Part shown: positions 5,116-20,237 of the stretch, piece after piece
How the letters are laid out: every line of letters starts with the position of its first letter
Position numbering within the stretch: position 1 is the first letter of the stretch
IMG/VR virus record: IMGVR_UViG_3300044630_000669
Span: 1-23,186 of that record
Source: a virus
Length of the DNA stretch: 23,186 nucleotides
Strand: one strand, 5' to 3'
Made by a program: the position numbers and the translations under genes
Notes under the pieces: generated by a model
What the model was told of the DNA's origin: nothing
The model's input: only the letters and a program-made list of their open reading frames with translations
Database searches by the model: none

Positions 5116-5123
5116 TATTTATC
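5116..5123 (-). promoter_or_regulatory. T4-type late promoter (GATAAATA) for gp19
   Basis: GATAAATA on the minus strand 22 bases before the gp19 ATG, leaving a short leader with AGGAG (5103-5107). This gives the tube gene its own promoter independent of the sheath transcript. Confidence 0.65.
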
Positions 5124-8861: not shown

Positions 8862-8869
8862 TATAAATA
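8862..8869 (+). promoter_or_regulatory. Perfect T4 late promoter (TATAAATA) abutting the HNH-like gene
   Basis: TATAAATA exactly matches the T4 late consensus. Only four bases separate it from the ATG at 8874, so transcription should start at or next to the start codon. No ribosome-binding site could fit on such an mRNA. Confidence 0.7.
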
Positions 8870-9902: not shown

Positions 9903-10688
9903 TTACCCTTGGATCCATGTCAAGGGCTGGGAATAATCAACATAGCGTTTGAGTTCGTCAATCAATGCTTCCTGCAGTGCTTTGGCTTCTGCCTTCATTG
10001 CACTACCGTTTAAGCTAGTACCACCACCTGGGCCTGCTATGCTAGCAAATTTTTCACGGGCTTCACCTATGATACCTTTTAGTACGGCTAAAGTAAAGTC
10101 ACCAATCCATACACCTGCGCCCGGGTCTTGTAGTAACACCTCGACGGATCTCTGGACATCAGCCCATATAAGAACCTTCTCACCTGTACCCTTAAAGTCA
10201 CGCACGATACGCATAACTTTAGTAACAGGGTCAAATGTGTAGTTTAAATAACCACCAAACATACGTGCGGTTAATTCAACATAACCAGCATAAAAATCAT
10301 ATGTTGCTAATCCGCCAGCTACATTATAGTTTAATAGATAGGTATTAAGAATAGCACTAGAGAACGGATCAAAACTAGTAGATCCGGGTCCTGTTTCTAA
10401 ACCAACTGTCCTACGATACAAACATCTTACATTAATAAATTCACTAGGTAATGTGTAGGTATCAACATTTTTAATAACAGTGAATAGTGTATATGTTTCC
10501 GCAGTTGCATTTTGTGCTCTTTGTCGGTATATCTTTATGGCGTAATTAAACGCGGCTTCATAATGCTGAGGATCTAATTCTAAGTCGATGATATCACCAC
10601 CTAACCTCAATCGGATGTTATTAAAGAGGGCTTCTTTTAGTTCATCTAGAGTTAAGTTAGTGGGTGTCGATAATATGCTGGCTACCAT
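9903..10688 (-). CDS. 13: Neck protein gp13
   Basis: A 261-residue homologue of T4 gp13 (309), which with gp14 forms the neck that seals the filled head and joins the tail. The N-terminal block matches T4 gp13 by eye: L-R-L-G-G-D-I-I-D-L-E-L (about 27-38) against R-R-L-G-A-P-I-I-N-V-E-L, then a helix ending A-I-K-I-Y. The C-terminus (A-L-Q-E-A-L-I-D-E-L-K-R) matches E-A-L-R-E-E-L in T4. The start has AGGA upstream and a GATAAATA late promoter 20 bases before the ATG. It is the only neck gene on this strand; gp14 and gp15 lie on the plus strand some 4 kb away. Confidence 0.8.
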   Translation of the reverse strand: MVASILSTPTNLTLDELKEALFNNIRLRLGGDIIDLELDPQHYEAAFNYAIKIYRQRAQNATAETYTLFTVIKNVDTYTLPSEFINVRCLYRRTVGLETGPGSTSFDPFSSAILNTYLLNYNVAGGLATYDFYAGYVELTARMFGGYLNYTFDPVTKVMRIVRDFKGTGEKVLIWADVQRSVEVLLQDPGAGVWIGDFTLAVLKGIIGEAREKFASIAGPGGGTSLNGSAMKAEAKALQEALIDELKRYVDYSQPLTWIQG

Positions 10689-10708
10689 TGTGTATTCCTA
10701 ATATCTTA

Positions 10709-10716
10709 TATTTATC
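10709..10716 (-). promoter_or_regulatory. T4-type late promoter (GATAAATA) for gp13
   Basis: GATAAATA on the minus strand, 20 bases before the gp13 ATG, with AGGA in the intervening leader. Confidence 0.6.
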
Positions 10717-10747
10717 TGGTTACATGTGTTTAGATATTCTTAGGCAA

Positions 10748-10776
10748 TGGCGAGTAGATATAAAATCTACAAGCCA
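10748..10776 (+). other. Strong stem-loop upstream of the candidate structured RNA
   Basis: TGGC (10748-10751) pairs with GCCA (10773-10776) and GTAGAT with ATCTAC, separated by a symmetric GA/AA internal loop and capped by ATAAA. It lies in the gene-free stretch and contains the ATG of a doubtful 65-codon frame. It may be part of the downstream RNA or a separate regulatory hairpin. Confidence 0.4.
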
Positions 10777-10818
10777 AAAACATTCTTGAGGAACATAGGC
10801 GATGATGAATTAAAAGAT

Positions 10819-10824
10819 TATAGT
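10819..10824 (+). promoter_or_regulatory. Possible -10 element (TATAGT) for the candidate RNA
   Basis: TATAGT (5/6 to TATAAT) on the plus strand. A start about seven bases on would coincide with the first base of the closing helix (10830). No good -35 box lies at 16-18 bases; an activator or phage factor would be needed. Confidence 0.25.
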
Positions 10825-10829
10825 GGAGG

Positions 10830-11148
10830 ATTGTCTATGTCTCACCAACCCCGTGAAGGGACCTTTCCGTATTCGCTGTTAAAGTGTAGGTATATTCATC
10901 AGGATTCTACACACAGCCCAGGCCCTCTATCGCAATTACTATGACCTGGCATACTATCAACTGTTAAGATATGGGAAACGTTACTCAACAAAGGTGAGGC
11001 GTTTAAAGCATCCACGGGTAGTCCCATAAATCTAGCGTTGGTCCCGCAGTCTACCGTCGCACCACTATGAGGACGGGTTATAGCCACACTTTGAGGTAGT
11101 GGGTCACCTATAGACCAATTAAAAAACGGGCACTGTGGCCCGTTTTAG
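10830..11148 (+). ncRNA. Candidate structured non-coding RNA of unknown class, ending in a terminator
   Basis: This stretch lacks a convincing gene and is GC-richer (about 46% by hand count over 10861-11100) than the phage background. Bases 10830-10839 can pair with 11109-11119 (ten pairs, one bulge, one G-U), closing a domain of about 290 bases. Inside are GCTGT+GTGTAG with CTACAC+ACAGC (10875-10917), CCAGG/CCTGG (10918-10949), TATGGGA/TCCCATA (10970-11028) enclosing AACG/CGTT and CTCA/TGAG, and CCGTC/GACGG or CTACC/GGTAG (11051-11099). A rival helix TTGGTC/GACCAA (11038-11118) could act as a switch. A strong hairpin follows at once. I find no tmRNA, RNase P, SRP or group I/II intron signatures. 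Plus strand is favoured by the G-U pair and the terminator position. Confidence 0.45.
11122..11147 (-). terminator. Bidirectional terminator between the MazG operon and the candidate RNA
   Basis: AAAACGGGC and GCCCGTTTT form a perfect nine-base stem around a six-base loop. On the minus strand it is followed by a T-run and lies directly after the MazG-like stop (11149), ending that operon. On the plus strand it ends in TTTTAGTT and could terminate the candidate RNA. Confidence 0.8.
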
Positions 11149-11589
11149 TTAGATATCGCCTTCTTTGCGATTCTCTGAGTAGTGTGCATCAAAACTGCCA
11201 CCGGGGTAGCGTGATTCTAATTTACGCACATTTTCATCAATGACTTCATTGGGGTCGATGTTCAATGCCCGACATGCATTGATCCAGTACCACATAACAT
11301 CACCTAGTTCACGCTTCATGTGAAAGACTGCGGCATCATCAAGTGGCTTGCCTTGAAAAATAATCTTTTTGGGCACTTCGATAAACTCTCCGGCTTCTGC
11401 TGCTAAGCCAAAACAAGCAGTCATAAGCAACGGAACGTTGATATCGGGTCCGTGCTCACCCGTAACAGAATTATAGTTACTATCCAAATCATCCAGACGA
11501 TCATGGAATGTAGTCAAGTCATTGCTTGCTCGGCTTGTCACAGCCTCTACGAATTGTTGGTATTTGTTTAAATCAATGTTTTGTGTCAT
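11149..11589 (-). CDS. MazG-like nucleotide pyrophosphohydrolase
   Basis: A 146-residue all-alpha NTP pyrophosphohydrolase of the MazG superfamily. The metal-binding motifs are present: E-A-E-A-G-E-F-type ExxE (E65, E68, with E71) and E-L-G-D (E94, D97), followed by K-L-E-S-R-Y-P-G-G-S-F-D near 123-134, usual in phage versions. It hydrolyses (d)NTPs to monophosphates; in aquatic phages it is thought to adjust nucleotide pools or alarmone signalling. Last gene of the minus-strand operon; its ATG overlaps the preceding stop (ATGA) and a strong terminator follows its own stop. The preceding residues 1-50 form an extra N-terminal helix region. Substrate unknown. Confidence 0.85.
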   Translation of the reverse strand: MTQNIDLNKYQQFVEAVTSRASNDLTTFHDRLDDLDSNYNSVTGEHGPDINVPLLMTACFGLAAEAGEFIEVPKKIIFQGKPLDDAAVFHMKRELGDVMWYWINACRALNIDPNEVIDENVRKLESRYPGGSFDAHYSENRKEGDI

Positions 11590-12338
11590 AATAGTCCTTT
11601 TTCTGTGATATAATTATGAAGATGTTCAGCATAAAGTCTATGCGGAATTTCGTCATGGTGAAAGTACTTTGCTTTCGTATTTTCATACCCTTGATTTTTG
11701 TATTTCCAATAGAATGCATTTTTTGGGTCATTGAGACCTATATAATGCCGTTGATCTATTAGATTTAAATAAAATTCTATATGCTTGTTTTCTTCTTCAA
11801 ACATGCACATGGTGTTACACATTAGATAATTTACTGAGATGGATTTGAAAAAATATTGAAGTTGGAGTATTTGGTTTGCGTTTTGAATTTCTAGATACTC
11901 TAAATTTTTTGCAATGAAATTATGATAGGTTGCTATAAATTCCTTCTCCTCAGGATTTGCACCAGCATAGCCCATGATAATTCTCATATATTTTTTACCT
12001 TCACTTGCATGATAATCACTGAATGGAAAATGCATTCCGTAATTAGAGATGCGATGTACTGGAATTTCCATCCTAGTACTTTCTGCCCATCCTATGACAA
12101 CAAAAACTTCCATAGTACTAGCGTCATATTTTTCATTAAACCATTGTAGGACGCTTCTAGCAATGGTAGAGTTTGTTGATCCGGGTTCTGCAATATTAAC
12201 CGGAGTATAATTCATATGTCCGGCTAATATATTTCCAAAAGAATGATCTCTGTTATATTTACTGTCGTTACTGCCGTCTATCTCAGATCCAGCGGTATGG
12301 CTACACCCGGCAATAAGCATTATTTTTTTATGTGTCAT
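11586..12338 (-). CDS. SGNH-hydrolase-like protein, tandem copy A
   Basis: A 250-residue protein with SGNH/GDSL-hydrolase-like order: I-M-L-I-A-G-C-S-H (candidate nucleophile S13) after the first strand, N-I-A-E-P-G-S-T-N-S (G53, N56) as block II, a strand V-V-I-G-W-A-E in place of the usual GxND block, and H-H-D-E-I-P-H near the C-terminus (D229, H233) as a possible Asp/His pair. It is clearly paralogous to the next upstream gene (12350-13111). I believe this family is catalogued as DUF6071, from memory and unchecked. It lies in the early-type operon, 11 bases after copy B, and overlaps MazG by four bases. An esterase or deacetylase is the natural guess; substrate unknown. Confidence 0.6.
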   Translation of the reverse strand: MTHKKIMLIAGCSHTAGSEIDGSNDSKYNRDHSFGNILAGHMNYTPVNIAEPGSTNSTIARSVLQWFNEKYDASTMEVFVVIGWAESTRMEIPVHRISNYGMHFPFSDYHASEGKKYMRIIMGYAGANPEEKEFIATYHNFIAKNLEYLEIQNANQILQLQYFFKSISVNYLMCNTMCMFEEENKHIEFYLNLIDQRHYIGLNDPKNAFYWKYKNQGYENTKAKYFHHDEIPHRLYAEHLHNYITEKGLL

Positions 12339-12349
12339 TGTAACCTATT

Positions 12350-13111
12350 CTATTTGTAAGTTGTGTGTAGATTGTTTTTAGTAATATACTCGTAAAGATG
12401 ATCCGCATAAAGCTTATGTGGAATTTCGTCATGGTGATAGTACTGTGCTTTTGCGTTCTTGTAACCCATATTAGCGTATTTGTAATAGAACGGTTCGTTG
12501 TTATTGTCGAAATCTAAAAATCTATTACGGTCAATTTGATCTTTGTACCATTGCAATGTAGGATCATTCTGAGTGAACATATATAATGTATTGACTAACA
12601 AATACTTTACCTTCTTCATTTTGAGAAAATATTGTAATTGCAATGTATAGGTCGCACTTAGTATCTCTAGGTATAATTCGTTGTCGGCCATGAATCTATG
12701 ATAACCTTCGATAAAGTCCTGTTCTCGTGAGCCGTTACCTTTGTAGCCCATATTGATTCTGATGTAGTCATCATTTGTAGGACTGTACCAATCTACGTGT
12801 TTATCCCACTCTTGATTATACCAAGTCTTCTGATAGAACGGGACTTCCATTCTGATACCATCAGCCCATCCTACGATTACAAACACATCATCATATGGAT
12901 TGTAGTTGTGATTGAACCAATCTAGGACGCTCCGAACAATTCCACCGTTTGCTGAACCTGATACTGCAATATTAACTGGTTCATACCCTAATTTAGTTGC
13001 AAGCAAATTACCAAAGCTATTTTGACGATTGTATGGGCTGTCACATGTGCCATCTATTTCAGATCCTGCAGGGTCACTTCCTCCTGCTATTAACATTATT
13101 TTTTTACTCAT
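12350..13111 (-). CDS. SGNH-hydrolase-like protein, tandem copy B
   Basis: A 253-residue paralogue of copy A, aligning along its whole length. Shared blocks are K-K-I-M-L-I-A-G, A-G-S-E-I-D-G, S-F-G-N, P-V-N-I-A, a G-W-A-(E/D) strand and H-H-D-E-I-P-H (D228, H232). The nucleophile block differs: G-G-S-D-P (S12) instead of G-C-S-H-T, so the Ser is kept but its neighbours changed. Block II is S-G-S-A-N-G-G. This suggests a tandem duplication followed by divergence in specificity or loss of activity. It overlaps the preceding SGNH-like gene by eight bases and is therefore translationally coupled. Function unknown beyond the fold guess. Confidence 0.6.
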   Translation of the reverse strand: MSKKIMLIAGGSDPAGSEIDGTCDSPYNRQNSFGNLLATKLGYEPVNIAVSGSANGGIVRSVLDWFNHNYNPYDDVFVIVGWADGIRMEVPFYQKTWYNQEWDKHVDWYSPTNDDYIRINMGYKGNGSREQDFIEGYHRFMADNELYLEILSATYTLQLQYFLKMKKVKYLLVNTLYMFTQNDPTLQWYKDQIDRNRFLDFDNNNEPFYYKYANMGYKNAKAQYYHHDEIPHKLYADHLYEYITKNNLHTTYK

Positions 13112-14916: not shown

Positions 14917-14945
14917 ATTATATATGATTTCCCATTTATTGTCAA
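14917..14945 (-). promoter_or_regulatory. Consensus sigma70 promoter driving the 14887-11149 operon
   Basis: On the minus strand TTGACA (14945-14940), exactly 17 bases, then TATAAT (14922-14917): both boxes are perfect. It lies 29 bases upstream of the first ATG (14887). In T4-like phages such promoters are read by unmodified host RNA polymerase immediately after infection. Confidence 0.88.
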
Positions 14946-18791: not shown

Positions 18792-20147
18792 TTATGCGCT
18801 AGCAATAACTACGATTGGGTTAGGTTGTCCGCCGTATGTATTTGCTGCATACGCTGTATTGAATGTAGCAATAACATCAGGGTTAACAGTAGACACTACT
18901 GCCGTACCTGTACCTGTACCTGTACCTGTAGCAGTGAATGTAATACCGGTCATGCTAGCATATGCACCAACTGCTGTCCAATCAGTAGTACCTGCACTAT
19001 AGATAGTGTATACTGTACCTGCTGATAGTGAATCTGCCGCAACAGTTGCTGGGAACCCTTCACTGTTGTAATCATTCAACGAACTAATAAAATTAGTTCC
19101 GGATGCAGCATTAGTTGACAAGATATTCATTGTGTTCGCTGTTAGTGCCGCATTGGCTGAATTAACAGTAAAGCATTGTGCAGTCAAACCAGTTGTACCA
19201 CCTGTTACCAAATACTTTGTCTTGCCTTTTTGACGAACGATATAACCTGCTTCGTCATCAGCAAATATAAATGCAGCATTAGTTGCATTCACTGCGGCAT
19301 TTGCAGTTAGTTCAACTACATCTTGTTGTGCATCCGGTGTACCTGTAGCATTTGACAAATCAACTTCAGCTCCACCTGGCAATAATGACACTGTAAATGC
19401 GTCTGAGTTTGCAACAGCTTTAACAAAGTAAACTTGACCAGATACTAAACCACCTAAGTTAGCAGTAAATCTTACTGTACCATTAGCAATCAATGTCTCA
19501 GCATTACCTGAAGTACCAATGATATTACCTGTATTTTGTGTGTTAGCAACAGCAACAGTTGTTAAGCCGGGTACTGTATTTGCAAAACCTAAATCAACGT
19601 AGTTTGTGCTACCGTTAATGTTTGCTACTGCAACTTGAATTCCTGAACCAACGCTCAAAGTGTTTGCTAAATCTGTACCTATACCAGTTACGAATTCAGT
19701 AGTGTCAGTTGCATACAATGTACCTGTACCGTTTTGACCAATAGCAACTCGTGCTAGAGTTTGCTTGCCATACAATGCTGTATTTCCGCCAACAACACCG
19801 TATGTGTTAGCTGATCCAATTGGATTGTTGAAGCCTGTGCCAATCAATCCAACTGTCAACTGTGATGCAGTTGTACCAGTAGTTAATGTAACTGGTGTAT
19901 ATGTTGGGTTAGCGTTTAGAGGTGTTGCAGAAACAGTGAATGTACTTGCACCTGTTATTTGCAAGATGAAATATGTTGTGCCTGCAACTAAGTTTGTACC
20001 GGTAGTTGTTGCTGGTACGAAAGGCATACCTGCAATAACACCTACGGTAGCTAGTGTTTGTGACACTGTAACTATGTTGGTTGTTGCTGTTGTGTTTGTT
20101 ACTGATAAGACCGTTTGGGCCTTAGCTATTTTTAGAGGACGTCCCAT
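18792..20147 (-). CDS. Repeat-rich structural (virion) protein
   Basis: A 451-residue Ala/Thr/Gly/Val-rich, Cys-poor protein predicted to be mostly beta. The start M-G-R-P-L-K-I-A-K-A is one I recall from structural proteins of aquatic T4-like phages. It holds related modules: L-V-A-G-T-T-Y-F-I-L-Q-I-T-G-A-S-T-F-T-V-S (about 53-73), L-V-S-G-Q-V-Y-F-V-K-A-V with D-A-F-T-V-S (about 234-254), and L-S-A-G-T-V-Y-T-I-Y-S-A-G-T-T-D-W (about 374-390) followed by a Thr-Gly tandem repeat. Likely a head decoration or fibre-like protein. A late promoter lies about 80 bases upstream and AAGGA precedes the ATG. Confidence 0.7.
   Translation of the reverse strand: MGRPLKIAKAQTVLSVTNTTATTNIVTVSQTLATVGVIAGMPFVPATTTGTNLVAGTTYFILQITGASTFTVSATPLNANPTYTPVTLTTGTTASQLTVGLIGTGFNNPIGSANTYGVVGGNTALYGKQTLARVAIGQNGTGTLYATDTTEFVTGIGTDLANTLSVGSGIQVAVANINGSTNYVDLGFANTVPGLTTVAVANTQNTGNIIGTSGNAETLIANGTVRFTANLGGLVSGQVYFVKAVANSDAFTVSLLPGGAEVDLSNATGTPDAQQDVVELTANAAVNATNAAFIFADDEAGYIVRQKGKTKYLVTGGTTGLTAQCFTVNSANAALTANTMNILSTNAASGTNFISSLNDYNSEGFPATVAADSLSAGTVYTIYSAGTTDWTAVGAYASMTGITFTATGTGTGTGTAVVSTVNPDVIATFNTAYAANTYGGQPNPIVVIASA
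18905..18930. repeat. Tandem hexamer repeat (TACCTG x4) within the structural gene
   Basis: Four exact copies of TACCTG plus two bases, encoding a Thr-Gly run on the minus strand. Being a multiple of three, copy-number change would alter length without frameshift. Confidence 0.85.
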
Positions 20148-20186
20148 TTGATTTTCCTTAATGTTAGTGCGAGTTCTAGTCGCTAC

Positions 20187-20200
20187 GCAGTGGGTACTGC
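20187..20200 (-). other. Leader hairpin of the structural gene mRNA
   Basis: GCAGT and ACTGC pair around a four-base loop in the roughly 80-base leader between the late promoter (20230-20237) and the gene at 20147. Possibly mRNA-stabilising, like the sheath leader hairpin. Confidence 0.35.
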
Positions 20201-20229
20201 ATAAACCTTCACCATGAAAGTATACATGA

Positions 20230-20237
20230 TATTTATC
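20230..20237 (-). promoter_or_regulatory. T4-type late promoter (GATAAATA) for the structural gene
   Basis: GATAAATA on the minus strand in the 127-base divergent intergenic region; leaves a leader of about 80 bases with a hairpin and AAGGA site. Confidence 0.6.

Follow-up and report, generated by a model that had tools for sequence, protein, structure and literature searches.

What large, structured RNAs do phages carry? Two described classes come closest to the one reported here. ROOL RNAs are large, multi-pseudoknotted, and phage- or prophage-borne, with no known protein partner or function (PMC12286853), while GOLLD RNAs are phage-borne molecules from lake and marine metagenomes with one conserved and one variable half (PMC12286853). 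We analyzed a stretch of 23,186 nucleotides, the whole of IMG/VR virus record IMGVR_UViG_3300044630_000669 at positions 1 to 23,186 (hereafter, the window), which carries on its minus strand a pseudoknotted noncoding RNA gene of ~385 nt. It matches no catalogued family, several dozen uncultured phages share its fold, and it probably represents a new type of phage RNA. Like ROOL (RF03087), the RNA is large, multi-pseudoknotted, and phage-borne, but it is ~385 nt long against 574 model positions, has no tRNA genes nearby, and lies in an early-operon setting. Like GOLLD (RF02032), it is phage-borne and has one conserved and one variable half; however, the conserved half is the 5′ one here and the 3′ one in GOLLD, the RNA is about half the length, and again no tRNAs are found nearby. 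Another structured RNA, freshwater-2 (RF02980), occurs in the same phage as a separate, 77-nt cis-type element ahead of another gene.

How well do models of known RNA classes account for the locus? None of the 4,227 Rfam models matched this region of the window on either strand, at the gathering or a loose threshold, or matched distant members of the family at the gathering threshold, which bears out the proposal in a first-pass annotation of this DNA that the RNA is novel. The GOLLD covariance model gave no match in 12 records at E ≤ 10 and was absent from a loose cmscan of 10690–11160. The ROOL model was equally silent in these records, as were its controls, which makes this a weaker negative, although the loose cmscan agrees. 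There were no tRNA genes near the RNA in 160 loci (1.37 Mb). Thus, we file the RNA as a new class. That it is a divergent, unrecognized member of a large class such as GOLLD or ROOL seems highly improbable: size range, pseudoknots, phage location, and the pairing of a conserved with a variable half are similar (PMC12286853), but both models fail to match, tRNA genes are missing, and the homologues measure 376–489 nt rather than 600–800. New by sequence and fold, the class may nonetheless work like GOLLD or ROOL.

The first-pass annotation had also recognized no tmRNA or intron signature, and we agree: ARAGORN and Rfam found no tRNA or tmRNA in the window, and no covariance model of a group I or group II intron matched there. 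The string UUCAAGAGACUACC in distant members resembles the R element of group I introns (a lead only). The RNA differs from such introns in that we saw no strand that could complete a P7 helix, Rfam gave no match, and no gene is interrupted.

A minus-strand, noncoding RNA gene

The window covers 23 kb of a T4-like freshwater jumbo phage and encodes gp13 (phrog_211), MazG (phrog_229), tail sheath, and gp15-type proteins. Compared by gp13, Atu_ph07 and PA5oct come out as the best named relatives (~40% identity). The first homologues of the RNA were 32 contigs found by tblastn with a 65-amino acid plus-strand open reading frame (10747–10944); profile searches of fetched loci and pattern scans gave 125 matches in viral contigs, ~50 of them nonredundant, with 60–97% identity to the window. 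Several were retrieved by exact motifs (GGAGGATTGTCTATGTC, ATTCGCTGTT...CAGCCC, GGGTAGTC...CTACCGTC, and others), so the invariance of those motifs is partly selection; all counts below are of sequences, not of independent events.

An alignment of 44 homologues places the RNA at 10737–11119 on the minus strand, with its 5′ end near 11119 and its 3′ end near 10737, both ends being set by conservation to about ±10 nt. The first-pass annotation, which had put the element at 10830–11148, was right that this DNA is noncoding, conserved, and structured, with many helices, yet conservation begins ~95 bases earlier, at 10737. Its 5′ half, ~170 nt long, is conserved, whereas the 3′ half varies more. 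Two homologues (L082 and L083) share one half without any difference but diverge clearly in the other, a mosaic that we read as recombination within the RNA gene.

Does the locus encode a protein instead? Among the homologues, 409 of the 450 indels have lengths that are not divisible by three, so the locus is not coding; the longest open reading frames vary, and a conserved reading frame, which the first-pass annotation had named as the competing outcome, was not found across them. A coding interpretation of the 65-amino acid open reading frame was rejected, because frameshifts and stops break the frame while the DNA is still conserved.

A plus-strand transcript was rejected on the basis of tetraloop counts. 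Among perfect 4-bp stems with 4-nt loops in 56 sequences, the minus strand showed 38 GNRA or c(UNCG)g loops and the plus strand 3; in 15 distant sequences, the counts were 11 and 0. The loops vary inside the GNRA family (GUAA, GAAA, GCAA, and GAGA). Well-aligned pairs read on the minus strand include 54 G-U against 27 A-C. The tetraloops, this wobble excess, and the promoters described below all place the RNA on the minus strand.

In the plus-strand transcript proposed by the first-pass annotation, the RNA would begin after a TATAGT box at 10824, be closed by a helix 10830–10839/11109–11119, and be ended by a hairpin at 11126–11146. A plus-strand hairpin followed by TTTT does exist. Against this stand the strand of the tetraloops, wobble pairs, and promoters, as well as the conserved structure that extends ~95 nt beyond the proposed start, on its upstream side. 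The closing helix shows no covariation: it has no two-sided changes, and 76.5% of its cells are paired, exactly as in shuffled controls (76.5%); one arm (the 5′ one) hardly varies, and the other covaries with 11038–11043. The TATAGT box falls within the RNA itself, in or beside helix P4, and so is not its promoter. The terminator hairpin (11121–11146), taken for the 3′ end, is upstream of the RNA, and the longer of its U-tracts is the minus-strand one. We regard the plus-strand transcript as very improbable.

A conserved, pseudoknotted fold

Is the fold supported by covariation? On the 44-sequence alignment (gene strand, MAFFT, without hand refinement), a structure of 85 pairs had 92.2% of its cells paired, compared with 79.4% after shuffling. 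Changes on both sides were seen at 64 pairs (shuffled, 41.2 ± 2.8), cells with two-sided changes numbered 520 (shuffled, 160 ± 13), and the covariation score was 0.375, against 0.155 for shuffled alignments and at most 0.091 for slid partners. Under a tree-preserving null (our own script, with FastTree, Fitch reconstruction, and 30 simulations), 13 pairs reached E < 0.05, of which 12 were below 1/30, and all consist mostly of standard pairs. The covariation check suggested in the first-pass annotation thus comes out in favor of a structured RNA. The significant pairs include long-range pairings absent from the structure as first drawn; 10812–10866 scored highest, and 10748–10934 had E = 0. Among the helices that the 85 pairs form, at least four cross others, as pseudoknots or long-range pairings.

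Folding energy, also suggested as a check, gave a different answer. The originally proposed span had z scores of −1.24 (plus) and −0.52 (minus) relative to shuffled sequence, and the true RNA had +0.42. Taken alone, this test would have refuted the proposal by the first-pass annotation's own criterion, energy no better than that of shuffled sequence; pseudoknots are invisible to it, and the comparative evidence decides.

All helices are given here on the minus strand, 5′ arm first. The RNA 5′ end (11113–11118) pairs with the loop of hairpin PD (11045–11047/11035–11037) at 11038–11043, forming pseudoknot PK1, in which six of six pairs show two-sided changes. This is one of two exclusive pairings that the first-pass annotation had drawn for 11113–11118; the other, with 10830–10833, is not supported, and neither is the proposed switch. 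PD itself is weakly aligned (48–67% of cells), and it and PC are weakly supported helices. Next to PK1, PK2b (11106–11109/11094–11097) is crossed by PK2a (11099–11102/11084–11087) in a 5′ H-type pseudoknot, with two-sided changes at three of four and four of four pairs, respectively, followed by hairpin PE (11072–11076/11054–11058; 98.2% paired, four of five pairs compensated). The core consists of PA (11022–11028/10970–10976) around PC (11016–11017/11012–11013) and PB (10995–11003/10977–10987). PA is paired in 100% of cells, is compensated at seven of seven pairs, and is kept in distant relatives too; it is crossed by PF (11007–11008/10961–10962), which is paired in 100% of lettered cells, shows a CG-to-UA change, and has E = 0.03 under the tree-preserving null.

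The 3′ half holds two further hairpins whose loops pair at long range. In P7 (10945–10949/10918–10922; 100% paired, four of five pairs compensated), the loop at 10926–10934 forms helix LR with 10748–10758 (bulge at 10754, gap at 10749; 99.7% paired, three of nine compensated). In P6 (10906–10917/10875–10890; 9 of 11 pairs compensated), the loop at 10895–10901 pairs with 10803–10809 in an interaction we call KISS (98.4% paired, five of seven pairs compensated), as exemplified by CATAACTT/AAGTTATG in one homologue (L213) and CCGTGG/CCACGG in another (L278). P3 (10862–10866/10812–10816; five of five compensated) encloses P5 (10858–10860/10850–10852) and P4 (10840–10845/10823–10827). The stretch from 10823 to 10845, GUGAGACAUAGACAAUCCUCCAC / CAAUCCUCC, is nearly invariant, in part because that motif was used for retrieval; it contains an anti–Shine-Dalgarno–like string, CCUCC, half buried in P4.

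The 3′-terminal hairpin P1 (10766–10775/10749–10759; 91% paired, three of nine compensated) is an alternative to LR. Both helices use the strand 10748–10758—which pairs with either 10926–10934 or 10766–10775—and both show compensations; thus, they are mutually exclusive. From this sequence pattern, a conformational switch is possible, or one of the two pairings may be intermolecular.

Near the RNA 3′ end lie similar, co-varying direct repeats, CTTAGG (10739–10744) and CTTGAGG (10785–10791), which do not pair on the RNA strand; a helix between them, which had seemed to form on the plus strand, was rejected because it does not hold up on the minus strand. Early consensus folds (ATTC/GAAT and 10738–10742/10965–10969) were also dropped, having no support from distant members.

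Constant place in jumbo phages and patchy presence

Where is the RNA gene found? In the window, it lies between two complete minus-strand genes, for a MazG-like pyrophosphatase upstream (11149–11589; phrog_229, E = 1.4e-46) and a gp13-like head-tail adaptor downstream (9903–10688; phrog_211, E = 2.4e-22). Throughout the jumbo-phage group, the RNA is co-directional with its neighbors, 3′ of MazG (or of a small gene behind MazG) and 5′ of gp13, a placement that is constant across ~40 loci. Between the RNA and gp13 is a T4-type late promoter, GATAAATA (10709–10716, minus), which precedes gp13 in the loci inspected, with or without the RNA. The string TATTTATC at 10709 was considered as a promoter of the RNA and rejected, being this late promoter on the other strand.

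Other GATAAATA/TATAAATA motifs in the window, at 724–731, 5116–5123, and 20230–20237 on the minus strand (as at 10709–10716) and at 8862 on the plus strand, lie mostly 5–25 nt ahead of gene starts (83 nt at 20230), like T4 late promoters. The freshwater-2 RNA (20145–20221, minus; 60.8 bits, gathering threshold 49.9) sits between one of them (20237–20230, minus) and the start of the open reading frame 18792–20147 (minus), apparently in its 5′ untranslated region; the phage therefore carries two structured RNAs.

Presence of the RNA at the gp13 junction is patchy. Among close gp13 loci with room for it, 15 of 76 carry the RNA; in the RNA-less loci, the stop of the upstream gene is directly followed by the gp13 late promoter. 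Presence and absence on the gp13 tree require 12 changes, at least 6 of which are forced by well-supported branches. Some basal gp13 branches are entirely RNA-bearing, a pattern in keeping with an old RNA that was lost repeatedly, along with some recombination. No partner gene was found to travel with the RNA. A protein cluster occurs near the RNA in four loci (L253, L098, L282, and L270), and the L253 member has a NUMOD3 homing-endonuclease motif, which suggests a homing hot spot.

How far does the family extend? A covariance model, R1, of the 5′ half (172 positions) aligned from end to end with another ~20 loci, all from smaller phages, at E values of 1e-10 to 1e-20; on the window, it matched 10953–11120 (minus) with E = 3.9e-36, the window being one of the model's own rows. 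The same helices recur in the distant members, where they are compensated independently (89% of cells paired; score 0.564 versus 0.183), in an alignment that was fitted to R1 and so leans toward the model. These smaller phages are probably marine; one encodes a tail protein related to those of pelagiphages (28% to HTVC026P). In other phages, the RNA adjoins different genes: it lies on the strand opposite to its neighbors in one locus (L414) and ahead of a convergent gene in another (L382), and one 277-kb genome (G001) holds two diverged copies (L441 and L442).

R1 found no RNA in seven named jumbo phages (Atu_ph07, PA5oct, Vibrio 2.275.O, Phosso, SE_PL, XaC1, and SCTP-2), three pelagiphages, one roseophage, or phage DSL-LC06. 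In blastn against GenBank phages and plasmids, the RNA had no match (three weak, partial ones look like chance), and a final viral scan gave chance matches only. Two GTDB matches from pattern scans of genomes were rejected as chance, a weak search of 198 genomes of one phylum found no RNA, and targeted searches of the open literature found no description of the RNA at 10737–11119.

Could the RNA be a mobile or selfish element, ribozyme-like or spread by neighboring homing endonucleases, that inserts into intergenic sites? Its presence or absence at one site, the two diverged copies in G001, the mosaic sequences, and the NUMOD3 homing endonuclease–like protein near the RNA in some loci speak for this. 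However, the site is always the same in the jumbo lineage and early branches bear the RNA, as expected for old presence with repeated loss, and we saw no target duplication, no group I or II intron signal, and no interrupted gene. We consider mobility doubtful, even more so than the cis-acting role discussed below.

Probable early expression and possible roles

When in infection might the RNA be made? In the lineage of the window, it closes an early-type operon, following MazG and preceding the gp13 late promoter. The operon has a perfect sigma70 promoter, TTGACA-N17-TATAAT, at 14917–14945 (minus), and of 30 homologous operons, 24 agree with this promoter at 10 to 12 of 12 positions in the corresponding place (perfect in 10, near-perfect in 14 more). 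Within it are tandem DUF6071 (PF19547) paralogues at 11586–12338 and 12350–13111 (minus), the former called below the family cutoff. Some distant members have a minus-strand sigma70 promoter of their own, TTGACA-N17-TATAAT, matching at 12 of 12 positions in L412 and L413 and at 11 of 12 in L403 and L404; CTAATAC-like repeats and ACAGAACCC lie between promoter and RNA in L403, L412, and L413. In the jumbo-phage group, neither a promoter just upstream of the RNA nor a clear 3′ terminator was found.

Between the MazG stop and the RNA, the window has an intrinsic terminator (11121–11146, minus; CGGGC/GCCCG stem, T6), which most likely ends the MazG message. Such a minus-strand terminator occurs in the window and some relatives; many relatives lack it. 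With a terminator ahead of the RNA, its production in the window needs read-through or an undetected promoter. Judging from the sigma70 promoters, the RNA is most likely an early transcript in both the jumbo and the distant settings.

A different possibility is that the RNA is a cis-acting element at the joint of the early operon and gp13—a leader or insulator on read-through transcripts in which LR/P1 switching would control downstream transcription or translation. The constant, co-directional place between MazG and gp13 and the two mutually exclusive, covarying pairings at the 3′ end, next to the late promoter, are in keeping with this idea, and since gp13 is the constant neighbor in the jumbo lineage, there is room for a cis role there. 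On the other hand, the gp13 late promoter stands between RNA and gene whether or not the RNA is present, most close relatives have no RNA at the same junction, and in other phages, the RNA precedes other genes, has its own promoter, or is antisense to or facing its neighbors. We judge a cis-acting element, such as a regulatory leader or riboswitch, unlikely. Different neighbors, own promoters, two copies in one genome, antisense or convergent placement, and patchy presence all favor a trans-acting accessory RNA over a gp13 leader.

The interpretation we prefer, with a probability of roughly 60%, is that this is a large RNA of a new class, early, accessory, and acting in trans, free or partnered, perhaps in host take-over, counter-defense, or as a scaffold. 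It would be made early in infection by the host RNA polymerase—in jumbo phages at the end of a sigma70-type early operon, in distant relatives from its own sigma70 promoter—and would be released from, or terminate on, the early operon transcript. It would then act in trans, either alone in its folded form or together with a partner, and would be accessory, as many relatives do without it. Its presumed early timing and its accessory status point to host take-over or counter-defense, and its pseudoknots and kissing loops would also be compatible with an assembly made of RNA alone, as in GOLLD and ROOL; early host take-over, counter-defense, or an RNA scaffold is our guess at the likeliest use. 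More tentatively, many unrelated aquatic phages may make this undescribed class early, as a trans-acting RNA machine that can switch between the two 3′-end pairings and serves counter-defense or host take-over or forms a self-assembling scaffold.

To our knowledge, large RNAs with so much conserved tertiary structure are rare, and nearly all of those with a solved function did something central. The RNA described here occurs in both jumbo and smaller phages but neither in Rfam nor in the GenBank phages searched. It offers a testable fold, strand, and promoter and a tangible starting point for asking what purpose large phage RNAs serve.
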